From NCBI GenBank assembly GCA_028820505.1, contig JAPPIT010000007.1, forward strand, positions 1 through 64,000: a DNA stretch of 64,000 bases. The letters are read 5' to 3'. This DNA is from Defluviicoccus sp. GTDB taxonomy: Bacteria; Pseudomonadota; Alphaproteobacteria; MPNO01. Both the position numbers and the translations under genes were made by a program. Shown piece after piece: positions 4,084-34,104 of this stretch. Below the pieces are notes generated by a model. That model was not told the DNA's origin and ran no database searches. It worked only from the letters and a program-made list of their open reading frames with translations. Every line of letters starts with the position of its first letter. The first letter of the stretch is position 1.

Positions 4084-5798
4084 GCCGCCTTCTCCGAGGG
4101 TGTGAACTCGACATCGATCGCGCCGCCGTCATAGACGATCGAGACCTTGCGGTCGCGTGGCACGATCCAGCCGATCTCGCGGCGCACCGCCTCGGCGATG
4201 GTGTGGCGCCGCGCCTCGTCCTCGGAGGCGAGCAGGCGGAGCGCGGCGTGCATCGCGTCCTCGTCGAAGCGGTCGCGCTGGGTCTCCCAGCTGTCGGAAT
4301 CGGCGTCGTCGGAGGGCGAGAAATAGGCCCGGCGCATGAGGACGGCGAGCTCGTGCGGCTGCACCGCGCTGCCGGCGGCGACGATCGGGTCGATGTCGCG
4401 GACGTAGCTTGAGGGCTCGCCGGCGAAGACGATATCGGTGGGGAGGGTCTCGCCGGTGACCGTGCCGTCGGCCGCGGCGATCCGGAGGGCGATGTCGATG
4501 GCGTCGGGCGCGCGCGGCAGCTCGGCGCCGTTCGCGCTGCCGCGCGGTCCCCTCGCGGCGCGCAGCGCATCGAGGGTGATGCTGGCGGAGCCGGTGGCGA
4601 TGACCGTGTCCATGTCGGTGACCCGGGCGAGCGCGTCGTACCAGGCGTAGCCCTCGAGGCGGGTGTCGGGCTCGAGCAGGCGGGCGTCGATGCCGGCGCG
4701 CTCGGCGGCGCGGTACATCGCCTGCTGGTCGGGCGGGTCGCGGTCCCAGGCGACGATGAGGTCGCCGGCGCCGACCGGGACCGGGGCCGGGGCGTCGCGC
4801 CAGTCGTCGCTGTCGGCGATGTCGGGGCGCCAGGGGCGGAGCCGGGGCTCGGGAACTGGCAAGTCGATGCCGGCCGCGGCGGCCGCGCGGTTGTCGGCGA
4901 AGGCGACCGAGACCGGCTTCTCCGCCGCTTCCATGGCGTGGAAGATCGCGCGCCTGGCGGCGTCGCGCATCTCTTCGAGGAAGGGCGTCTCGACCGGCTC
5001 CTTGCGGGCGGGCAGCACCAGCTCGAGGTCGGGGCAGGATTCGATGTCGGCGCGGACCGACCAGGTGCGGCCGTGGAGATCGTTGACGGTGGGCATCGCG
5101 GCCCGGAGGGTGAGCCCGTGGAAGTTGAGGTCGGGCTCTCCGTAGGCCGGGTAGCGCGCGTTGAAGACCCCGAAACGGACCCCGTTCCAGGGCTCGATGT
5201 GCGCCGCGCCGTCGGTGAAGGGCTGGCGCGGAAGCTCGACGCCCGCGAAGGAGACGGCGATGGGGCAGTACCGCGCGGCCTCGGACAGCGCCTGTTCGAG
5301 ACGCTCGGGGGAGGACTCGGAGACGAAGGACACCGCGGTGCCGTGTGGGCACGGCGCGCCGTCGTCGGGCAGGATCGGGGCCTCGTCGCGGCCGAGGAAG
5401 GTGTCCGGGGTGAGCTGGACGCGCCAGCCCGGGCCGCCGGTTCCGTCCGCCATGCGGGGGCGCGAGGCGACGGCGCAGCCGCGCCGCGACAGGGCGTAGA
5501 CGCCGATCCCGGCCGGGTCCTCGGCGGCGGCGACGGTCTCGTCCCAGCCGCTCTCGCCGAAGGCGAGCAGCACGGCCGGGTCGGAGATGCCGAGGCCGTT
5601 GTCGGTACAGGCGACGAACAGGCCGCCGTGCCGGAGGGGGGTGACGGCGACGTCGAAGGCGGTGGCGCCGCCGCGGCGCGCGTTCTGCAGGAGCTCGGCG
5701 AAGGCGTCGTCCTCGGTCGCGTTGAAGAACCGGGTGACGCGGTCGATCGCGCTGTCGGAGACCCGGGCGCGGATCGCGGTGGGCATGTCGGCGTGCAT
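4080..5798 (-). CDS. GHKL (HSP90-like) ATPase
   Basis: This 572-residue protein has an N-terminal GHKL fold: FAELLQNARRGGAT (N box), CTDNGLGISDP (G1 box) and a G2-like GIGVYALSRRG. HSP90, MutL and MORC-type ATPases share these motifs. The C-terminal end, EIGWIVPRDRKVSIVYDG, recurs as a free-standing 73-residue protein farther right. ATG was chosen over an upstream frame extension because GAGG lies just before it and the extension is low-complexity. The next gene overlaps by 4 bp. It may be a MORC-like DNA clamp or chaperone of the element. The substrate is unknown. Confidence 0.8.
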   Translation of the reverse strand: MHADMPTAIRARVSDSAIDRVTRFFNATEDDAFAELLQNARRGGATAFDVAVTPLRHGGLFVACTDNGLGISDPAVLLAFGESGWDETVAAAEDPAGIGVYALSRRGCAVASRPRMADGTGGPGWRVQLTPDTFLGRDEAPILPDDGAPCPHGTAVSFVSESSPERLEQALSEAARYCPIAVSFAGVELPRQPFTDGAAHIEPWNGVRFGVFNARYPAYGEPDLNFHGLTLRAAMPTVNDLHGRTWSVRADIESCPDLELVLPARKEPVETPFLEEMRDAARRAIFHAMEAAEKPVSVAFADNRAAAAAGIDLPVPEPRLRPWRPDIADSDDWRDAPAPVPVGAGDLIVAWDRDPPDQQAMYRAAERAGIDARLLEPDTRLEGYAWYDALARVTDMDTVIATGSASITLDALRAARGPRGSANGAELPRAPDAIDIALRIAAADGTVTGETLPTDIVFAGEPSSYVRDIDPIVAAGSAVQPHELAVLMRRAYFSPSDDADSDSWETQRDRFDEDAMHAALRLLASEDEARRHTIAEAVRREIGWIVPRDRKVSIVYDGGAIDVEFTPSEKAA

Positions 5799-23540: not shown

Positions 23541-24068
23541 TCACCGCCGCAGGCAGGCGATGAAGGCGTCGCGCACCTGCCGGTTCCTGGCGTCGCTTGC
23601 GCGGTTGAAGAACGACCGGTAGCCGTTCGAGATCAGCGCGTCGGGCGTGAGCGCCGCCCTGGCGAAGGCCTCGGCGCTCCGGGGGTCCCGGATAAGCGGG
23701 CTGTGAAAACCCGACTCGGATCCGCCCCTGAGGACCGGACCGTACGCCTTCCCGCTGCCGTCCGGCAGGCGGACGGCGAGCTGGACCGGACGGCGGTCGG
23801 CGGGGAAGCCGCCGAACAGCACAGTGACCTCGGCCTTGCGGGGCCCGGTCGTGGTGCAGGAGAACGCCATGCCGAGATAGAAACCGGTGTTCCCGAGCTC
23901 GCCGCGCATGACGTAGGCGACGGTGCCGCCCCGCTTGAATTCCCGGATGACGGAAATCTCCGGCGTGGGCCAGGTCCGCTCGCGCTGGGCGAAAGCGTCC
24001 GGGATGGGGGCGATCGCGAGAAGGCCGGCGAGGGTCACGATCTGCCGGAAAGAGATGGGGACGGGCAT
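23541..24068 (-). CDS. Secreted protein of unknown function
   Basis: This 175-residue protein has a signal peptide (MPVPISFRQIVTLAGLLAIA, then PIPDAFA) cut after AFA. The mature part has VIREFKRGGTVAYVMRGELG, a two-Cys pattern (FSCTTTGP and the C-terminal ACLRR) and a RDPRSAEAFARAALTPDAL region. No family is recognised. It lies 101 bp after the membrane-protein triplet in the same direction. It is probably periplasmic. Confidence 0.7.
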   Translation of the reverse strand: MPVPISFRQIVTLAGLLAIAPIPDAFAQRERTWPTPEISVIREFKRGGTVAYVMRGELGNTGFYLGMAFSCTTTGPRKAEVTVLFGGFPADRRPVQLAVRLPDGSGKAYGPVLRGGSESGFHSPLIRDPRSAEAFARAALTPDALISNGYRSFFNRASDARNRQVRDAFIACLRR

Positions 24069-24169
24069 TGGTGGGTTCTCCGATTGAGGGGCGGGGTGCG
24101 GATCCGGGTGGGCGCTGTCGTTCGCGGCGGACGAGAATCGGCTTTCCGGCAGGGGCGGTGCGGAAGGCG

Positions 24170-24856
24170 TCATGGCTCGTCGCTCCCGATCAGGGCCGCC
24201 CGGTAACGTCGCTGTGCCTCCCGATCCCTTTTCAAGAGTTCCAGCCAGGCCCTCCAGAAGCATGTGCGTCGTCGGGCGGCGACGAGAGCGATCCAGGCGC
24301 CGTCGGAGGCGCTGCCGAGAACGAGAGCGGAGAGGGCGATCCATCCCGCGAGTCCGTCGTGTGGGGGACCGGCGGCCGTGGATAGCCCGAGCGCGACGGC
24401 GATCAGTGCGAGCCGTCCGCCGGCGGAGATGTCGACCGGCAGGTGCGCTCTTCCCTTTCGATGCTCGTGGCGGTGCACCGAGAAGGAGAGGAGCACTCCG
24501 GCGATATAGAGTGGAACGCTGCTCAACACCTGCCATGACGTCATATGCCCGGGCCGGAACAGATCGAGGGAGAGGACAACAATGGCGGCCAGAGCGGAAA
24601 TCTTGAGAGATTGCGCGCCTTGTCCGAACTGCCACCAGAGGCTGTCGAGTATTTGGGCAGGCTCGCCGTCTTCAGGGAGCTTGTTGCCGGAGCTGCTGGC
24701 GTTGCGGCGATCGGGCACCTGATGCCGTTCTTTATCCTGGCCGGCGGGCCTTGGATGGGGTGGCGTTGGGCCTTCTACGGTGCGGTGAGCATGCTCTTCC
24801 TGGCTCAGGTTCTGGGAAATGTTGTCTGAGTTTCTGGGGACTGGGGGCCTTGTCAT
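24170..24856 (-). CDS. WWQ-family membrane protein, copy 1
   Basis: This 228-residue protein has a polar, Pro-rich N-terminus (about 65 residues), then ILDSLWWQFGQGAQSLKISA, then two hydrophobic pairs, VHRHEHRKGRAHLPVDISAG, and the tail FWRAWLELLKRDREAQRRYR. It is clearly homologous to the next two genes. The start overlaps the preceding mini-ORF by 4 bp. The predicted topology is about four membrane helices with a basic cytoplasmic tail. The name is descriptive; no known family is recognised. Confidence 0.7.
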   Translation of the reverse strand: MTRPPVPRNSDNISQNLSQEEHAHRTVEGPTPPHPRPAGQDKERHQVPDRRNASSSGNKLPEDGEPAQILDSLWWQFGQGAQSLKISALAAIVVLSLDLFRPGHMTSWQVLSSVPLYIAGVLLSFSVHRHEHRKGRAHLPVDISAGGRLALIAVALGLSTAAGPPHDGLAGWIALSALVLGSASDGAWIALVAARRRTCFWRAWLELLKRDREAQRRYRAALIGSDEP

Positions 24857-24972
24857 GTTCCGTCCTCCAAGTGGGGTCGGAAGGTCTTGGCGCTGAAGCG
24901 GGCGAGGTCGTCGTTGAAATCGTGGGCGTCGTGCGCACGGGAGACTGGCCGCTGCGCTTCGGACGGACTCAT
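24853..24972 (-). pseudogene. 39-residue chimeric fragment ending like the Toprim protein
   Basis: The first residues (MSPSEAQRPVSR) resemble the N-terminus of WWQ copy 2 (VSASGTQREVSR). The rest (HDFNDDLARFSAKTFRPHLE) resembles the end of the Toprim protein (GDFNDDLERFGADAIANAFN then PHLE). It keeps 4-bp overlaps with both neighbours. It looks like a scar of the duplication that made the triplet. It could still serve to couple translation. Confidence 0.6.
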
Positions 24973-25535
24973 CGCTCGCCCTTTCCGAACAGTGCCGCCC
25001 AGCAGTGTTTCCCCGCCTCCCGCTCCCTTCGGCAAAGCTGGTACCAGGCGCGCCAGAAGCCGACCCCGCGTCGCGTCGCCACGAGAGCGATCCAGGCGCC
25101 GTCGGAGGCGCCGCCGACGAGGAGCGCGGCGAATGCCAGCCAGCCCGCGAAGCCCTCCGCGGCGGGATCGGCGGAGAAACAGAACACGAGGGCGGCCGTG
25201 ACGAGTGTGAAGCGCCCGCCTCCGGAAACGTCGAGCGGAAGACTCGCTCTTCCCTTGCGATGATTCTGGCGTTCGATGCGGAAGAAGCACAGGACGCCGG
25301 CGCAATACATTCGGAGGCTGCCGGATACCTGCCATGGTTTCATATGGCCGGGGTGGATGAGATCGGCGGCCAGAACGACGCCGAGGGCGAGACCGGAAAT
25401 CCCCAGGGATCGGGAGCCTTGTCCGAGCTGCCACCAGAAGCTGTCGAGCATCTGGGGAGGCTTGCTGTCTGGAGGGAGCTTGTTGTCCGCGCCGGGCGGC
25501 CGGGAGACTTCCCGCTGAGTTCCGGACGCGCTCAC
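24969..25535 (-). CDS. WWQ-family membrane protein, copy 2
   Basis: This 188-residue homologue of the flanking copies has MLDSFWWQLGQGSRSLGISG, IERQNHRKGRASLPLDVSGG, DGAWIALVATRRGVGFWRAW and a basic end. GTG is chosen because it overlaps the stop of copy 3 (GTGA). The N-terminus is short, lacking the long polar extension of copies 1 and 3. About four hydrophobic helices are predicted. The function is unknown. Confidence 0.7.
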   Translation of the reverse strand: MSASGTQREVSRPPGADNKLPPDSKPPQMLDSFWWQLGQGSRSLGISGLALGVVLAADLIHPGHMKPWQVSGSLRMYCAGVLCFFRIERQNHRKGRASLPLDVSGGGRFTLVTAALVFCFSADPAAEGFAGWLAFAALLVGGASDGAWIALVATRRGVGFWRAWYQLCRREREAGKHCWAALFGKGER

Positions 25536-26224
25536 CGTTCGTCCCTCCCGATCAGCGCCGACCAATAGTGTCCCTGCGCCTCGCGCTGCTTTCGTACGAG
25601 CTCGTACCAGGCGTCCCAGAAGCCGATCCGCCGCCGCGCGGAGATAATCGCGATCCAGGTACCGTCGGCCACGCTGCCGAGAAGGAGAGCGGCGAGGGCC
25701 AGCCTGCCTCCGAGTCCGTCGGTCGCCGGGTCGGGGGAGCCGCAAAGGACGATCGCCGCGAAGATCATCACGAACCGGCCGCCTCCCGAGACATCGAGCG
25801 GCAGGTTGGCTCGTCGTTTGCGATGCTCGCTGCGCTGGGTTCGGAAGGAGATGACAACGCCGACGAAGTAGAGCGGAACGATCCCGAACACGTGCCATGT
25901 CTTCATGTGGCCGGGTTCGACAAGATGGGCGATGATGACGACAGTAGCCGCCAGAACGGAAATCCCGACGGATTCCGCGCCTTGTCTGAACTGCCACCAG
26001 ACGCTCTCGATTACCTGGCGCGGCTGGCTGCCATCGGGGAGCTCGCCGCCGCCGCCGTCCGTGACGAGGCCATCGTCACCTTGACCGGTCTCGCGGCGGC
26101 GGACGGGTGGCGACGGGTCGGAATGTTCGGGAGAATCTACGCGTGCGCGAGCACGGCCCTCTTCTTCGTGGCTGTCACCCGGATTCTCGGAGTCCGAGCG
26201 CCGGCGGGTCCACGGCATCCTCAT
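25532..26224 (-). CDS. WWQ-family membrane protein, copy 3
   Basis: This 230-residue homologue has VIESVWWQFRQGAESVGISV, TQRSEHRKRRANLPLDVSGG and SARRRIGFWDAWYELVRKQR. The N-terminal 75 residues are polar and charged. The ATG overlaps the Toprim stop by 4 bp, so this is the copy directly attached to the Toprim gene. It is probably the arrangement from which the others were duplicated. It may be a membrane partner of the element's replication functions, but that is speculative. Confidence 0.7.
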   Translation of the reverse strand: MRMPWTRRRSDSENPGDSHEEEGRARARVDSPEHSDPSPPVRRRETGQGDDGLVTDGGGGELPDGSQPRQVIESVWWQFRQGAESVGISVLAATVVIIAHLVEPGHMKTWHVFGIVPLYFVGVVISFRTQRSEHRKRRANLPLDVSGGGRFVMIFAAIVLCGSPDPATDGLGGRLALAALLLGSVADGTWIAIISARRRIGFWDAWYELVRKQREAQGHYWSALIGRDER

Positions 26225-27204
26225 GACCGGCCCTCCAGGTGAGGGTTGAAGGCGTTGGCGATGGCATCGGCCCCGAACCTTTCGAGGTCGTCGTTGAAGT
26301 CGCCGAGCGTGGGCGCGACGACCGCGGCGTCGATTCCGGCCCCGCGGGCGCGGGCCGCGAGGCGGAACGCGGCGGCGGTGCCGTCCTCGCCGGCGTCGCG
26401 GGCGATCAGGAGGCGGAGGACGTCGTCGGGCGGCACGAACCCTGCGACGTGGCGGGCCGAGCCCGCGGCCGCGCCGGGGATGCCGGGAAGGGCGGTGAGG
26501 ACAGACAGCACCGTCTCGATCCCCTCGCCCACGACGAACGGCCGGGCCGGGTCCGCCGGGCCGAAGCGAATGGCGTTGCCGAGCACCGGCCCGAGCGCCT
26601 TGCGGGGATCGGGGAGCGCGGCCTTGGCGGGCCGCACGGGATCGAGCCAGGTGCGGTGGATCGCGGTGATCGCGCCCGCGTTGTCGGTCACCGCCGCGAC
26701 CATGGCGGGGAGCCGCCGGAGGGTCCCACCGTCGCGGCGGTTGAGCGCCGGGTGAAATCGGAGCGCGGGCCAGTCGCGCGGCGGGATCGCGCGGGCGCGG
26801 AGATAGGCCTCGGCGTGGGTGCCGGCGATCGGCTGGCAGAGGCGCCAGATGCGCCGCGCCGTGTCGCCGTAGCCTTCCGGCGGCGCGGCGGAGCGCGGCG
26901 GAGAGGGCGGGTGCAGCGGCAGCGACAGGAAGCGGTGGCCCTCGACGATGGCGTCGCGCAGCTCGCAGGCGTCGATGCTGATGCGGATCAGGTCGAGCAG
27001 GTCGCCGTGCTCGCCGGTGGCCTCGTCGGTCCACTTGCCCGGAAGGCCGGGCGGGGCGAGACGGACATGCATCGACTTGCCGGCCTTGCCGCGAACGTCG
27101 CCGCAGATCCAGTAGCGGCCGTTCTTCCTGCCGTTCGGCAGGTAGTGGCGGCAGACCGCCTCGGCCTGGTCGGACAGCGCTCGGGAGAGTTGGGTTGCGT
27201 TCAT
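26221..27204 (-). CDS. Plasmid-type Toprim primase/helicase-like protein
   Basis: The protein is 327 residues long. The N-terminal region has HYLPNGRKNGRYWICGD and a GKAGKSMHVRL segment, like the DUF7146/zinc-less primase N-domains. The C-terminal Toprim_3 domain shows FVVGEGIETVLSVL (catalytic Glu) and LLIARDAGEDG (acidic motif, normally DxDxxG). It ends with DFNDDLERFG. Toprim proteins of this size are common in alphaproteobacterial plasmids and may prime replication. It is coupled by ATGA to WWQ copy 3. Confidence 0.85.
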   Translation of the reverse strand: MNATQLSRALSDQAEAVCRHYLPNGRKNGRYWICGDVRGKAGKSMHVRLAPPGLPGKWTDEATGEHGDLLDLIRISIDACELRDAIVEGHRFLSLPLHPPSPPRSAAPPEGYGDTARRIWRLCQPIAGTHAEAYLRARAIPPRDWPALRFHPALNRRDGGTLRRLPAMVAAVTDNAGAITAIHRTWLDPVRPAKAALPDPRKALGPVLGNAIRFGPADPARPFVVGEGIETVLSVLTALPGIPGAAAGSARHVAGFVPPDDVLRLLIARDAGEDGTAAAFRLAARARGAGIDAAVVAPTLGDFNDDLERFGADAIANAFNPHLEGRS

Positions 27205-27682: not shown

Positions 27683-27970
27683 TCATTCGCAGCCCAGGCA
27701 ATCGGGCATCTCCACCACGGTGCCGCGGGTTTCGCCGGATATCCGCTCGTGGGAAGCGGGTGCCCAGAGGAGGGTGGCGACGCCCGGCGGCCAGAGAGAG
27801 CGGTCGATCTGGACCGCGAGCGTGCGAAGTTCGCGCCGGCGCGCCTCCAGCTCGGCGAGCGCGCGGTCGGGGCGATAGTCCCAGGGACCGCGGACGAGCG
27901 CATCGAAGAAGGATTCGTAGGCGCGGGCGATGTCCTGTGGCGTCGTCTGGGGGTGTTGGGCCGCGGTCAC
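27683..27970 (-). CDS. Hypothetical protein coupled to the truncated RepC
   Basis: This 95-residue protein has DIARAYESFFDALVRGPWDY then RPDRALAELEARRRELRTLA, mostly helical, and a Cys pair (CLGC) at the C-terminus. GTG overlaps the preceding stop by 4 bp (GTGA). It is not recognised as a family. Its tie to the RepC-like gene suggests a role in replication control or incompatibility. Confidence 0.6.
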   Translation of the reverse strand: MTAAQHPQTTPQDIARAYESFFDALVRGPWDYRPDRALAELEARRRELRTLAVQIDRSLWPPGVATLLWAPASHERISGETRGTVVEMPDCLGCE

Positions 27971-28500
27971 GGTCCGCGCTCCCGGGAGGTACGGTCGAGC
28001 TCGGCAGCGGCTTCGCGAAGGTGCGGGAGCAGTGCCGCGGAGGGCGACAGGTCGACGCCGAATGCGAAGACGATGTTGCCGTCCTCGTCTCGTTCTCCGA
28101 ACCGGGTGTGGTTTGCAGAATCCTTCCACGAAATGGCGCCGAGTTCGTGCATCTTTTTCTCGTTGCGGCGGATCTGCGATGCTGAAATGCCGAGCCTGCG
28201 CGAGATTTCGGGGACTGGGAGGAAGACGATGGGATGCCTCCCGGGAAGCCAGTCCTGGGGGCGGGTGAGGTCGAGAAGCAGGCAGAAATGGTGAATTACG
28301 GTAGGTCGCCAGCCCAGCCGGTGTCCTGCGATGCGGAGGAGCTCGGCAATCTCATGATGGTTTTCGCCTTCGGCCAGACCGGCGAAGGCGGCTGCCGCGT
28401 CCTCCGACGCGAAGTGCTCGGCTCCGCGAGGCCGTCGCCCTTTCGGTTTGGGACTGCGGGATATGGGTTGAGCAGAGCGGTTGTCATTGGAACGCCTCAT
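27967..28500 (-). CDS. RepC N-terminal-domain protein (truncated paralogue)
   Basis: This 177-residue protein is nearly collinear with the first third of the RepC at 32399. Both share EHFASEDAA-AFAGLAEG, LTRPQDWLPG or TRPQDWLPG, and RRNEKKMHELGAISWKDSAN or its RLHELGAISWKDSAN form. The winged-helix DNA-binding part is complete and ends at DLSPSAALLPHLREA. The central and C-terminal RepC parts are absent. It may compete with RepC for the origin or be a remnant of a second replicon. No strong ribosome site is seen. Confidence 0.75.
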   Translation of the reverse strand: MRRSNDNRSAQPISRSPKPKGRRPRGAEHFASEDAAAAFAGLAEGENHHEIAELLRIAGHRLGWRPTVIHHFCLLLDLTRPQDWLPGRHPIVFLPVPEISRRLGISASQIRRNEKKMHELGAISWKDSANHTRFGERDEDGNIVFAFGVDLSPSAALLPHLREAAAELDRTSRERGP

Positions 28501-28603: not shown

Positions 28604-29098
28604 TCATGTCGGAAACGTCGTTCGCGTGACGCCGTCGGCATCGACGCGGGAGACCTCGTGCCAGGGCCGCCACCCCTCGGGCAGGCACCAGCCCCATTCG
28701 CGAGTCCGGGGCCCGGCGACGAAGAGGGTGAGCGCCCGGCTGGCGGTAAGATCGAGCCGGTGCGCGAAGCGCGCCGGCCGCCAGGCGAGGATGCCCGGCG
28801 TGATCGCGGCTCGGCTCGGACGACCGTGGCGATCGAGACCGTGCTCGTGTAGCGAGCCCTGGAGGCAGAGCGAGAGCGACGGCCAGGGATGGTCGTGCAG
28901 CCAGGGGGCGGGGTCGTCGCCGACATAGAGATGGACGTAGCAGGACCAGGCGCGGCGTTTCGCGACGTGCCAGCGGCGCAGATAGGCGTCGCCGATGATC
29001 TCGTCGGGCGGCCGGGCCATGACCGACTCCGCGTGGACGCGGAGCCGGTGCCTGGCGGCGTGGCCGAGCAGCGGGGAGATGTCGATCGTGACGCTCAC
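28604..29098 (-). CDS. Cupin-like protein coupled to the recombinase
   Basis: This 164-residue protein has a cupin-type metal pattern: WLHDHPWPSLSLCLQGSLHE followed by HG, and RPARFAHRLDL, then LFVAGPRTREWGWCLPEGW. Related single-domain cupins occur in phages and plasmids with no known function. GTG overlaps the serine recombinase stop by 4 bp (GTGA). The N-terminal 25 residues before MARPPDE may be a weak extension, since an ATG also exists there. Metal binding is likely and the reaction unknown. Confidence 0.65.
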   Translation of the reverse strand: MSVTIDISPLLGHAARHRLRVHAESVMARPPDEIIGDAYLRRWHVAKRRAWSCYVHLYVGDDPAPWLHDHPWPSLSLCLQGSLHEHGLDRHGRPSRAAITPGILAWRPARFAHRLDLTASRALTLFVAGPRTREWGWCLPEGWRPWHEVSRVDADGVTRTTFPT

Positions 29099-30684
29099 AG
29101 GGCCGTTCCCCGGGGGTCGACCGGCGGGCCGTCTTCGAGCGCGAAGGCGACGAGCTCCGGGGTGCGCGGGCGTATCGAGATGTCGACATTGCCGCGGCCC
29201 GGGAGCGGCGAGACGTCGATGCGCTCGATCAGCTTGGCGAGGCGGAGCAGTGCGCGTCGCCGCCGGTCGGGGCACATGCCGCAAATCTCGCGGGCGAGCA
29301 GGGTGAGGCGCCGCTGGAGGCGGCGCGAGAACCCCGCCGGCGTGGCGGTCGGAAGATCGGGAAGCGACCGGAGCTCGACCTGCATGGCGGCCTGCTCGCG
29401 CTCGATGTCGAGGATGCGGCGATGGGCGGCGCCCGACCGGGTCCCGGTCTCGATCGCGTCGAGCAGGAGGGCGATGCGGCGGTGACCGTCCTGGATGGCG
29501 GCGTTCAGCTCGTCGCGGCGGAGCCGGGCGGTTCTGGCCGCTTCGTGGATGAGGTTGGCTACGTCGCCGGTGCGAATGACGTGCCGCGAGAGCAGCCAGC
29601 AGGCATCGTTCTCGATGCGGTCGACGGCGATGCTGCGGCGGTTGTCGCAGGTGCCCTGGCTGTGGCGTGCGTGGCATCTGTAGCGGTCTTTCTGGGAGAC
29701 GTTCATGCCGCCGCCGCAAACGCCGCAGTGGAGCACGCCGGTGAGGGGACGCGGGATACGGGGTCCCGAGCCGTAGCGGCGGTCGTGCCCCGCCCGGCGC
29801 CGATCCTGCACGCGCTGCCAGAGATCCGGGTCGACGATGCGGAGATCCGGCGCGTCCCTCGTGATCCATTTCGATTCGGGGTTGAGCCGGCTCTTGCGCT
29901 TCCCGGTGTCGGGGTCGCGGATGAATGTGTTGATGTTGTAGATCAGGCGGCCGTCGTAGAGGTCGTTGTTGAGGATGCCTTTCCTCGACTTCGGATTGCC
30001 GTTGATGGTGCTTTGGTTCCAGGGGCCGCCGCGGGGGCCGGGCACTTCCTCGGCGTTGAGGATCGCGGCGATGCTGCGCGCGCTGGCACCCTCGGCGTAG
30101 AGGCCGAAGATGCGCCGCACCACCGCGGCCTGTTTCGGATCGATGGCGCGTAGGCCCTTGGTCACCTGGCCGCGCTCGTCGATCTCGTTGGCGTTGCGGT
30201 AGCCGTAGGAAACCCCGTTGGGGATGCGTCCGGCGTGAATGGCCCCGATCTGGCCGCGCCGCGTCTTGGCGGCGAGGTTCTCGATGTAGGTATGGTTCAT
30301 CAGCCCGCCGATGCAGACATGGATGTTGTCGATCTCGCCCTGCTCGAGGGTGATGAGCTGCACGTTCCAGAAGCAGAGCCGCTTGTGGATTCCCGCCATG
30401 TCCTCCTGGTCGCGCGAGAGCCTGTCGAGGCTCTCGGTGAGGATGATGTCGATCCGTCCCTGTTCGGCGTCGAGCAGGAGCTCGCGCAGCGCGGGACGGA
30501 AATGGCGGGTGGTGCCGGTGGCCGCGGGGTCCTTGTGAACCCGGACAACGATGCCGTGCAATTCTTGCGCGCGCTCGTTGCAAAGCCGGACCTGGTCCTC
30601 GATCGAGGTGGGTTTCTGGAGCTTGGACGAGAAGCGCGCGTAGATCGCAACGCGGGGGGCGGCGGGGGTGTTTGCGTCAGGCAT
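29095..30684 (-). CDS. Large serine recombinase
   Basis: This 529-residue protein has an N-terminal resolvase domain with VAIYARFSSKLQKPTSIEDQ (nucleophilic Ser), then ILTESLDRLSRDQEDMAG. The recombinase domain follows (EVPGPRGGPWNQSTINGN and NNDLYDGRLIYN). A zinc ribbon (CGVCGGGM with the later CHARHSQGTC) and a coiled-coil C-terminus complete the layout. The ATG with GGAG 7 nt upstream was preferred to one 33 nt earlier. This class integrates phages and elements between att sites, so it is the probable integrase of the block. Confidence 0.9.
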   Translation of the reverse strand: MPDANTPAAPRVAIYARFSSKLQKPTSIEDQVRLCNERAQELHGIVVRVHKDPAATGTTRHFRPALRELLLDAEQGRIDIILTESLDRLSRDQEDMAGIHKRLCFWNVQLITLEQGEIDNIHVCIGGLMNHTYIENLAAKTRRGQIGAIHAGRIPNGVSYGYRNANEIDERGQVTKGLRAIDPKQAAVVRRIFGLYAEGASARSIAAILNAEEVPGPRGGPWNQSTINGNPKSRKGILNNDLYDGRLIYNINTFIRDPDTGKRKSRLNPESKWITRDAPDLRIVDPDLWQRVQDRRRAGHDRRYGSGPRIPRPLTGVLHCGVCGGGMNVSQKDRYRCHARHSQGTCDNRRSIAVDRIENDACWLLSRHVIRTGDVANLIHEAARTARLRRDELNAAIQDGHRRIALLLDAIETGTRSGAAHRRILDIEREQAAMQVELRSLPDLPTATPAGFSRRLQRRLTLLAREICGMCPDRRRRALLRLAKLIERIDVSPLPGRGNVDISIRPRTPELVAFALEDGPPVDPRGTAL

Positions 30685-30744
30685 GTAATCTCTCCATCTT
30701 TTGCGGACGGAGGCCATGCCTTGGCGATCGGCGCCGGCAGGGGG

Positions 30745-31707
30745 TCAGCCGGCATTTTCGGGGGCGCCAGTGATAGGGGGGTGGGGCTCGGAAATCCAGC
30801 CGTTTTCGTGCAACCATGAGACGAATTGCGCCTTGGCATCGGGAGGGGCGGCGGCCCAGCTCTCCTTGATCCTCTCCAGAGGGTTTGTCGGTACGGCGGT
30901 CTCCGCGGCCGCCGCGCGGTCGGAAGCGTCCGACTCGTCGAGCCCGAGGAGTTCGGCCAGCGTCTCCGGCGGTTTCTGCGCGGTTTGCAGCAGCTGCAAG
31001 GCGCGGTCGCGTTCCGAGATCGGCATTTGCGACAGGCGAAAAAGATCGCCCTCCCGCCGCGCGATGGGCGTGTCCGCGAGGGCGTCGGCGAGCGCCGGCG
31101 AAATGTTTGCGCCGATCGACGCGGCGCGCTGGACCGCCCGTGGGGACAGCCCGATGCTGGAGGCGGCGTCCTCGGCCCAGGAGAGGCCCGGGGCGGCGTT
31201 CCGGGTGTAGTCGGCGCTCTTCCGGTCGCCGCCCCGTCCGGAGTTGTGGATCTCGGAAAAGATGTGCCTGCGCCGGTGCAGGAACCGGCCGCGGTCGAGC
31301 GCGGTGAGCTTCTCGCGGATCAGGTTCTCGTCGATCTCGATCAGCTCGGTTTCGATCGTCTCCGCATCGACGATCAGGGCGTCGATAGAGGACCAGCCCA
31401 GGCGGCGTACCGCTTCGAGGCGGTGGGCGCCGGCGATGAGGATGTGCAGCGCGGGATCGTCCGGGTCGGGCCTGAGCACGACGGGGGATTGCAGTCCCAC
31501 CCGAGCGATCGAATCGGCGATTCTGTCGGCGGCTTTCTCGTCGACCTTCCTGAGGCGCCCGTCCGGGATACGGATCGAGGCGATGTCGACGGGCAGCACC
31601 GGCCGCGGGCGGGGGCCCGGAATCGGGGTGCCGTCCACGGCGCTGTCGGCAGGGGAGGGGTCAGCTGTGGCGGGTATCGCGTCGGCGAGGCTTACGCGTT
31701 TCGGCAT
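30745..31707 (-). CDS. parB: ParB/RepB-type partition protein
   Basis: The protein is 320 residues long. The ParB domain shows VGLQSPVVLRPDPDDPA, LIAGAHRLEAVRRLGW and IEIDENLIREKLTALDRG. The helix-turn-helix region has LSPRAVQRAASIGANIS. It begins inside the end of parA (16-bp overlap), so the two form one operon. ParB binds centromere sites and, with ParA, segregates low-copy replicons. The size is normal. No parS site was recognised by eye. Confidence 0.9.
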   Translation of the reverse strand: MPKRVSLADAIPATADPSPADSAVDGTPIPGPRPRPVLPVDIASIRIPDGRLRKVDEKAADRIADSIARVGLQSPVVLRPDPDDPALHILIAGAHRLEAVRRLGWSSIDALIVDAETIETELIEIDENLIREKLTALDRGRFLHRRRHIFSEIHNSGRGGDRKSADYTRNAAPGLSWAEDAASSIGLSPRAVQRAASIGANISPALADALADTPIARREGDLFRLSQMPISERDRALQLLQTAQKPPETLAELLGLDESDASDRAAAAETAVPTNPLERIKESWAAAPPDAKAQFVSWLHENGWISEPHPPITGAPENAG

Positions 31708-32339
31708 GACGTCTCCTGGTTCCGGTGGGATTGCAGGCGGAGCGCGATCTCGCGGTGGAGCGCGCGGATTTCGGCCGCGGCCTTGCTGCGCGGCTCGAAC
31801 TCGCAGGCCGCGAGGCCGGCGGTGAGCGAATGGACGAAGGCCTGGCGCTGGACCAGCCGGGTCTCGAGGACGTCGATCCCCATGGCGGCGAGCGCATCGC
31901 GCGCCTCGTCGGCCATGGGGCCGCGCGGCGGGACCGCATTGAGCAGCACCGCTGCCGGCGTTCCGGCGAGACCGGCGATGTCGACCGTGGCCGAGATCGA
32001 GTGGAAATCGAACAGCGCCGGCCGGCACGGAATGACGACCAGATCGGCGGCGCGGGCGGCCGCGAGCGCGCCGCCCTCCGCATGGGGCGCGGTGTCGATC
32101 ACCGCCAGGTCGCAGGGCGCGATCTCGGCCAGGACGATCGACAGGCGGTTGGGCGGGCAGCAACGCACTTCGGGCCGCGCCGCGGCGCGGAGATCCGACC
32201 AGGTGGCGGCGGAGGCCTGCGGGTCGAGATCGACGATCGCGGTGCCGAGGCCGGCCTGTTCGGCGGCGGCGGCGAGGTGGACGGCGACGGTGGTCTTTCC
32301 GGCGCCGCCCTTGCGGGAGGCGATGGCGACGGTGCGCAT
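31692..32339 (-). CDS. parA: ParA-type partition ATPase
   Basis: This 215-residue protein has the deviant Walker A IASRKGGAGKTTVAVHLA right at the N-terminus, and LDPQASAATW and LAVIDTAP as Walker A'/B. There is no N-terminal DNA-binding domain, so it is a type Ib-like small ParA and not the roughly 400-residue RepA of classical repABC plasmids. A GGAG lies 9 nt upstream. It is followed by parB and preceded by repC in the same direction. Confidence 0.92.
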   Translation of the reverse strand: MRTVAIASRKGGAGKTTVAVHLAAAAEQAGLGTAIVDLDPQASAATWSDLRAAARPEVRCCPPNRLSIVLAEIAPCDLAVIDTAPHAEGGALAAARAADLVVIPCRPALFDFHSISATVDIAGLAGTPAAVLLNAVPPRGPMADEARDALAAMGIDVLETRLVQRQAFVHSLTAGLAACEFEPRSKAAAEIRALHREIALRLQSHRNQETSCRNA

Positions 32340-32398
32340 GGGGGTTCGCTCCGAAAGGGTGGGGACCGCGGGGCCGGGAAGCGGGGAAGGGGAGGGGT

Positions 32399-33793
32399 TC
32401 ACTGGAGCCTCTCCCGCCCGTCCCGGGCGCCCAGCCGGTCCCGCCACCCCTCCGGGAGAAGTCCGAAGACCGATGGCCGGAGGTGAAGCTTTCCGGAGGC
32501 GTGGCGGCGCGTCATCTGCCGGAAATAGCCGCCGGGCGAGTAGACGATGCCGCGTTCGTGCTTGACGGCCACGACCGTCAGCGCGACCGCGGCCCTTTCC
32601 CGGCCGAGGTCGAGGCAGGCGTCGCCCCAGGCGTGCTGCGAAACCCCGATGCTGGCGGCGATGTCGGCCGCGGCGTCGACGATCGCGGGCCAGATGTCGC
32701 CGCGCGCCGGCACCCGGGATCGCATCTCCTCGGGCATGATCGCGAGGAAGGCGGGCACCGGCACCCCGGCCACGGTGTCGTCGCCGGTATAGTGGTAGGC
32801 AGGCGCGTCGCGGCGGGCTTCGCTACCCGCTTCCCCCTTCCGGCCGGCGCGCTGCGCTACTGTAATGTTTACACATAAAGGTTCCCTTGTAGGGTAATCA
32901 TATGGTGGCTTGCGCGGCGGGTTGCCGGGGCTGTCGTTATCTTGATCGATGGCATCCAGGTTGGGTTCGAGAACGGAGTTATCCGAGTTATCCACAGGCC
33001 CGCCGGTTTGGTCCGGCGAGCCGCCGCCGGGGCTCTCGTCGTGGGGGACGGTGGCGAGATCTCTCTTGAGCGTCGCCTCGATGGCCTGGAGACCGGAAAG
33101 CTGCTTTGTGAGGGTGGGAAGGTGTTCGTGGTCGTGATCGTGGGAGGCTTCCAGCACGAGGCGTCGCCAGGCCTCGGCCGCGGCCTTGTCGAGGCGTCCG
33201 GCTTCGAGGGCGGTCCTGACGGCGGCGAGAATGGAGCGTTTGAGCGCCTTGATGTCGTTGCGGGCGGTCTTGCGCTGTGAATGCGTTCCGGCGGCGGCGA
33301 GAGCTTCGCGCAGGCGCGGCAGGAGCGTGGCGGAGGGCGACAGGTCGATGCCGTAGGCGTTCTCGATGTTGCCGGCCTTGTCGCGCCGACCGAAGCGCCG
33401 GTGGTTGGCCGAATCCTTCCACGATATGGCGCCGAGCTCGTGGAGCCTCTTCTCGTTGCGGCGGACCTGGGATTTCGAAATCCCGAGTTCGTTGGCGGTT
33501 TCCCGCACCGAGAGCCAGACGATGGGGTGCGCGCCGGGAAGCCAGTCCTGGGGACGGGTCCATTCGAGCAGGCGCTGAAAGTGCTGGATCAGCTTGGGTT
33601 GCCAGCCGAACTCGGATCCCACCTTGTTAAGAAGGCGCCCGATTTCCTTGTGACTGTCGCCTTCGGCGAGGCCGGCGAAGGCGGAGGCGGCGTCCTCGGA
33701 GGCGAAGTGCTCCGGTCCGCGGGGCCTCTGCCCGCTCGGGTTGGGGCTGGCGGATGTGGACCGGTCAGGTCCCGTCTGATTTCGATTGGCCAT
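32399..33793 (-). CDS. repC: RepC replication initiator
   Basis: This 464-residue protein has a winged-helix N-domain (LGISKSQVRRNEKRLHELGA, ISWKDSANHRRFG, DLSPSATLLPRL), a polar AT-richer linker, and a C-domain ending SPGGYFRQMTRRHASGKLHL. This is the usual RepC form. RepC initiates plasmid replication at an origin within its own gene. In this set it stands first (repC-parA-parB), the reverse of standard repABC. The ribosome site is weak, consistent with tight control. An in-frame stop directly upstream fixes the ATG. Confidence 0.88.
   Translation of the reverse strand: MANRNQTGPDRSTSASPNPSGQRPRGPEHFASEDAASAFAGLAEGDSHKEIGRLLNKVGSEFGWQPKLIQHFQRLLEWTRPQDWLPGAHPIVWLSVRETANELGISKSQVRRNEKRLHELGAISWKDSANHRRFGRRDKAGNIENAYGIDLSPSATLLPRLREALAAAGTHSQRKTARNDIKALKRSILAAVRTALEAGRLDKAAAEAWRRLVLEASHDHDHEHLPTLTKQLSGLQAIEATLKRDLATVPHDESPGGGSPDQTGGPVDNSDNSVLEPNLDAIDQDNDSPGNPPRKPPYDYPTREPLCVNITVAQRAGRKGEAGSEARRDAPAYHYTGDDTVAGVPVPAFLAIMPEEMRSRVPARGDIWPAIVDAAADIAASIGVSQHAWGDACLDLGRERAAVALTVVAVKHERGIVYSPGGYFRQMTRRHASGKLHLRPSVFGLLPEGWRDRLGARDGRERLQ
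32859..32996. promoter_or_regulatory. Candidate replication origin inside repC
   Basis: An AT-rich stretch (about 32859-32914) contains the palindrome TGTAATGTTTACA. Some 75 bp on is an exact DnaA box TTATCCACA (32988-32996), preceded by a partial TTATCC copy. RepC-type origins lie in the AT-rich middle of repC, exactly where this is. Function is inferred from position and motif. Confidence 0.55.
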
Positions 33794-34059: not shown

Positions 34060-34104
34060 AACCCATCGGAGAAGACTGCCCGGGCGCGCATACATATACG
34101 GAAG

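Follow-up and report, generated by a model that had tools for sequence, protein, structure and literature searches.

W, a rare family of membrane proteins encoded at start/stop overlaps in mobile elements of Alphaproteobacteria

Three consecutive genes encoding similar membrane proteins lie beside a primase-like gene in a 64,000-nucleotide stretch of a Defluviicoccus sp. genome (the window). This arrangement raises the questions of what these proteins are, how the copies arose between tightly joined genes, and what they might do for the DNA that carries them.

A family of paralogous membrane proteins on an integrated element

The three genes, first picked out in a sequence-only reading, are complete and occupy exactly positions 24170-26224 of the minus strand (Table 1). 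As that reading had described, their products have four motifs in common: S-x-WWQ-x-x-QG, HRK-x-RA-x-LP-x-D-x-S-x-GGR, DG-x-WIA and FW-x-AW. A, B and C are paralogues with 47-56% identity (B and C against A, 47-52% in the full alignment; core identity among the three, 52-55%). With A as the BLASTP query, B and C were found at E values of about 1e-69, while 1,000 shuffled versions of B gave nothing below 2 (best 2.4), so the likeness is far beyond chance. A, B and C belong to a new family, here named W.

Table 1. Coordinates of the W genes and neighbouring features in the window
Feature	Position	Strand	Length and start	Description
Downstream ORF	23541..24173	minus		Overlaps C by ATGA at 24173
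Gene C	24170..24856	minus	228 aa, ATG	W family
Chimeric mini-ORF	24853..24972	minus	39 aa	B-like 5' start and copy of Toprim 3' tail
Gene B	24969..25535	minus	188 aa, GTG	W family, short N-terminal arm
Gene A	25532..26224	minus	230 aa, ATG	W-family membrane protein (ORF, alignment)
DUF7146 + Toprim_3 primase-like gene	26221..27204	minus		Upstream of A, overlapping (Pfam 4.5e-35 and 9.8e-18)
Element backbone	29095..33793	minus		Serine recombinase, ParB-like, ParA, RepC (Pfam; syntenic in G004)

Searches of Pfam, NCBIfam, PHROGs and PADLOC returned no family match to W, and Foldseek returned none at E ≤ 0.001 (best 0.5 in the PDB and 0.24 in BFVD). There is a weak likeness over the helices to DUF1275 (in 4 of 11 W members) and DUF4401 (in one). 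At 15-18 bits against gathering cut-offs of 25-30 (15.1 versus 25.4 for DUF1275, 17.2 versus 30.4 for DUF4401) this does not amount to a match. A profile search of the PDB yielded only a phage coat protein, judged to be a chance hit. The description of an unrecognised family thus holds in every library searched by profile or predicted structure, and none of them linked W to a described transporter or anchor family. An AlphaFold model built from a 14-sequence alignment (mean pLDDT 77, pTM 0.69) has four membrane helices, with a further helix at the C-terminus; an earlier model from six sequences (mean pLDDT 51) was set aside. The loop between TM2 and TM3 and the C-terminal tail are basic and the N-terminal arm is charged and variable in length, a pattern that suggests an N-in/C-in topology.

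The first 34 kb of the window contains genes for RadC, an AAA protein, the Toprim protein, RepC, ParA, a ParB-like protein and a serine recombinase, and the chromosome begins at 34.1 kb (ubiG onward). The right boundary of the integrated element falls at 33.8-34.1 kb, adjoining ubiG. The same arrangement lies next to ubiG in G004, a genome of the same genus, and element sequence including RepC is also found at ubiG in G001; the alignment to G002 stops at 34082 and does not include the element sequence. Here the W genes are carried by a RepC/ParA/ParB/serine-recombinase element that in this assembly is integrated beside chromosomal ubiG and is no free plasmid; the plasmid setting proposed earlier is only partly apt. 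The element's minus strand encodes a RepC N-terminal domain twice, in a short gene (27967-28500) and in a full-length one (32399-33793), which resembles the outcome of an old partial duplication. A sister Toprim locus on another contig of the same genome (C212) reads Toprim-ATGA-zinc-ribbon gene-secreted gene, without W. A survey of W copy number beside plasmid Toprim genes had been proposed; 357 plasmid records, including 203 conjugative ones, contain a Toprim homologue, and W was found in no plasmid record.

Start/stop overlaps, duplication scars and divergence

All four 4-bp overlaps noted previously are present, namely ATGA between Toprim and A, GTGA between A and B, and ATGA between B and the mini-ORF and between the mini-ORF and C; the one at the end of C (Table 1) had been missed. 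Across the family, the 3' end lies in an ATGA or GTGA overlap in 13 of 13 genes and the 5' end in a 4-bp overlap in 11 of the 12 with a usable start, counts that come from five genomes in two genera and are not all independent. The 5' exception starts some 10 nt beyond PilU; a further gene, on contig C132 of genome G312, has lost its start codon. By comparison, and with a rough gene caller, such overlaps joined 19 of 52 close gene pairs on contigs with pil/tra genes and, among chromosomal pairs, 3 of 15. Four-nucleotide overlaps couple translation through termination-reinitiation (PMC10666635), so the output of W would be expected to track that of the upstream gene. W shares this overlap with other translationally coupled ATGA pairs, but differs in that one family recurs at the junctions of unrelated gene pairs and overlaps its neighbour at either end. 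The tails of W genes show stronger pairing with the 16S end than the ends of other genes do (mean of the others -3.9 kcal/mol); a special Shine-Dalgarno enrichment was considered and weakened, given that the tails are purine-rich and pair no better than their own shuffles.

The ORF downstream of C encloses a secreted-type protein with a probable start at 24068 (MPVPISFRQIVTLAGLLAIAPIPDAFAQ). The window copy has no Pfam match, and relatives occur at loci L038, L010 and L072. In G004 the gene is duplicated downstream of W (L010:3857-4393 and 4422-4925, minus), and a relative is included in a pilus operon of genome G409 (L072:12782-13324).

The mini-ORF is chimeric, as first read: about 15-20 codons resemble the start of B, clearly so in the DNA, and the remainder is the Toprim C-terminal motif DFNDDL-x-RF...PHLE. 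The N-terminus of C resembles that of A, which follows the genuine Toprim end. Together these features indicate that an ancient tandem duplication copied a unit comprising the Toprim tail, a W gene and the start of the following gene. On this sequence evidence the mini-ORF is a duplication scar that has retained ATGA overlaps on both sides, and the array is old, the Toprim tail within the mini-ORF having clearly diverged. In G004 the order is Toprim-W1-W2, followed by a frame-shifted remnant of the Toprim tail and two copies of the secreted-type gene. A second mini-ORF, made of the first 25 codons of PilU and the tail of a gene X, lies between two W genes in G312 (L066:8056-8286, minus); this duplication has a like architecture with other flanking genes, and is independent of that in the window. 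A site-specific attachment site was rejected as the origin of the mini-ORFs: the scars involve different genes and breakpoints, and ordinary unequal recombination therefore suffices. The anatomy of genes, overlaps and scars set out here is held with high confidence.

Between the window's genome and G004, dN/dS of the W copies in the minus frame is 0.31-0.39, the same range as Toprim, which identifies this as the coding frame; purifying selection, judged from these ratios, holds for the full-length copies. C is nearest to W2 of G004 (63%; tree support 91/93), and A shares 58% core identity with W1. A simple orthology of A with W1 and B with W2 found no support, since the tree groups C with W2, and the tree does not settle the other orthologies. 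Synonymous divergence between the two genomes is 0.81-0.89 for W and 0.33-0.59 for long backbone genes. GC3 is 0.72-0.80 in W and 0.89-0.93 in Toprim and the recombinase, and weaker codon bias may be partly behind the higher dS.

In the G312 duplicate the flanks are about 87-93% identical and W about 62% overall (interior 38-78%). The flanks have pN 0.04 and pS 0.28 (0.16-0.40), the W core pN 0.28 and pS 0.49 (0.39-0.59), and the W arm pN 0.47 and pS 0.58. Either W diverged far faster than the flanks copied with it, or unequal crossing-over joined two different alleles; the pS intervals of flanks and core just touch, so that a joining of alleles is likely rather than certain. An earlier suggestion of selection for diversity gains support from W outpacing its co-copied flanks, a pattern seen only in G312, and from the independent tandem amplification in another bacterial family.

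Distribution and thin-pilus operons

Profile searches covering 97 relatives, 385 genomes at class level and 398 at phylum level, together with the relatives and order of G312, found W only in the window's genome, G004 (two copies), G002 (one fragment), G312 and G409. The last two belong to another alphaproteobacterial family than the window's host, and W is thus present on mobile elements in two bacterial families. The G002 fragment, of the same genus as the window's host, is decayed and fused to unrelated sequence (L011:4673-5374, minus). Weak class- and phylum-level matches (E 1e-3 to 1e-2) were taken as chance. No relatives were found in plasmid, phage and viral-contig collections. In a genome-contig collection the query A1 had no match, and a protein of G312 matched its own record alone, the metagenome-assembled genome CAR1_bin_3. 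W is a rare family. The genomes are drafts with an estimated contamination of 1-9%, and at least G312 is metagenome-assembled; faulty assembly is an unlikely source of paralogues that share 50-60% identity.

In G312 and G409 the W genes stand among those of an IncI-like operon for a conjugative thin pilus, next to homologues of PilO, PilP, PilQ, X and PilU (the names PilN, PilO, PilP and PilR are assigned from position and resemblance). Pfam domains in the G312 operon are T2SSE, PilS, Shufflon_N (twice), Peptidase_A24 (weak), TcpQ and T4SS_TraI (DotC-type). The earlier placement of these genes near a replication protein is accurate for the window, where Toprim adjoins A, and does not extend to these relatives in conjugative-pilus operons. 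After a PilO-like gene of G312 lies a W gene with its start region in another frame (L067:1611-2302, minus), probably a pseudogene or an assembly error.

Sites filled with W in one operon are empty in others. X and pilU are joined directly by ATGA or GTGA, without W, in G407, G408, G410 and two operons of the window's own genome; PilP runs to the start of PilQ in G407 and G408. At these sites G312 and G409 have W. As the empty sites are joined by the same overlap, W sits exactly within the start/stop overlap. Whole-genome searches of G407, G408 and G410 found no W elsewhere. In the genus of G312 and G409, W occurs in just two of the eight genomes sampled, which would favour its gain over its loss. 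The two W-free operons of the window's genome are L118 (C21) and L119 (C48). By eye, the gene before PilQ in both appears to end in a thermonuclease-like domain; in G312, G407 and G408 a domain similar to it forms a separate gene after pilU.

Possible roles of W

The reading preferred here, held at rather less than even confidence as a whole, is that W genes are accessory to mobile elements, encode membrane proteins, diversify fast and most likely have a protective role. W proteins would be inner-membrane proteins with a variable cytoplasmic N-terminal arm, four helices, both termini inside and a basic C-terminal helix, and their genes are accessory cargo. A W gene takes up the 4-bp start/stop overlap at which two backbone genes meet, and ribosomes finishing the upstream gene could thereby re-initiate on W and those finishing W could re-initiate on the next gene. 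Copies arise through unequal recombination whose breakpoints fall in the flanking genes, leaving chimeric mini-ORFs, and divergent copies are retained together. The W proteins may guard the resident element against related incoming elements, by entry exclusion or by immunity to superinfection, and the possession of several divergent copies would provide several specificities. This proposal comes from the association of W with mobile elements, its dispensability, the number and divergence of its copies and an arm that varies and is presumably cytoplasmic; placement between overlapping genes, tandem copying and fast divergence are consistent with a part in conflicts among mobile elements. Multi-specific protection itself is put forward tentatively, by analogy with known systems.

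Entry exclusion proteins are inner-membrane proteins that pair with TraG or TraY (PMC7690428, PMC8923210), and the specificity determinants of Eex are reported to be cytoplasmic in a title cited in PMC7690428. Like TraS of F, Eex of SXT/IncC and ExcA of IncI, W would be an inner-membrane protein carried by conjugative elements and dispensable for transfer, and is predicted to be multi-pass (four helices, positive-inside loops). Unlike them, it has several tandem or interleaved copies and no sequence match in family libraries, including to any described Eex family in Pfam, NCBIfam, PHROGs and PADLOC. No T4SS partner of the TraG, TraY or TrbL type lies beside W, whose neighbours are Toprim and the secreted protein in the window and pilus genes elsewhere; W is not filed under entry exclusion proteins because this defining neighbour is absent.

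Interleaving with homologues of PilP, PilQ, PilS, PilV and PilU in G312 and G409, and the enrichment of 4-nt overlaps among genes for heteromeric complexes (PMC10666635), would suit an accessory subunit of the conjugation or thin-pilus machinery, with copies forming a hetero-oligomer in proportions fixed by coupled translation. The G312 and G409 operons do share T2SSE, PilS, Shufflon_N, Peptidase_A24 and TcpQ with the IncI type IVb pilus operons of R64 and TP114. However, W is no constant part of such operons, being absent at the X|pilU site in five sister operons, at PilP|PilQ in G407 and G408, and from the whole genomes of G407, G408 and G410, and in the window it adjoins Toprim rather than pilus genes; a subunit role is accordingly unlikely. 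An effector that disrupts membranes, or a component of an anti-phage or toxin-immunity system, is rated a little less probable: the small size of W, its several membrane helices, its variable soluble arm and its location on mobile elements would suit such a role, but W has no PADLOC or Pfam match and no conserved partner gene, its neighbours varying by site.

The precise overlaps could also make W a cheap hitchhiker of little benefit, hard to lose without harming its neighbours, as its residence at overlaps and its decay in G002 and on C132 of G312 might imply. Selection on full-length copies in the range of Toprim and the repeated retention of duplicates in two lineages speak against this, and it is considered improbable. 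Transport of an ordinary solute, by a small carrier or channel, would have the four helices and the sub-threshold likeness to DUF1275 and DUF4401 in its favour; with those scores far under the cut-offs, no fold match at the Foldseek threshold and a location only on mobile elements, this is very doubtful. A bolder version of the protective reading, in which the ends of W form a portable ribosome relay, so that it can settle between any two coupled genes of a mobile element and leave their expression intact, diversifies by allele exchange and provides multi-specific exclusion of rival elements, is likewise a long shot, rated on a par with the hitchhiker.

Tight operons with overlapping genes are usually held to resist insertion. 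The repeated and nearly invariable residence of W inside overlaps on mobile elements would show a route for new genes into such operons. If its copies do exclude rival elements, W would add a new family to those for exclusion or immunity and would offer, from alphaproteobacteria that have had little study, a natural example of one element stacking several alleles.
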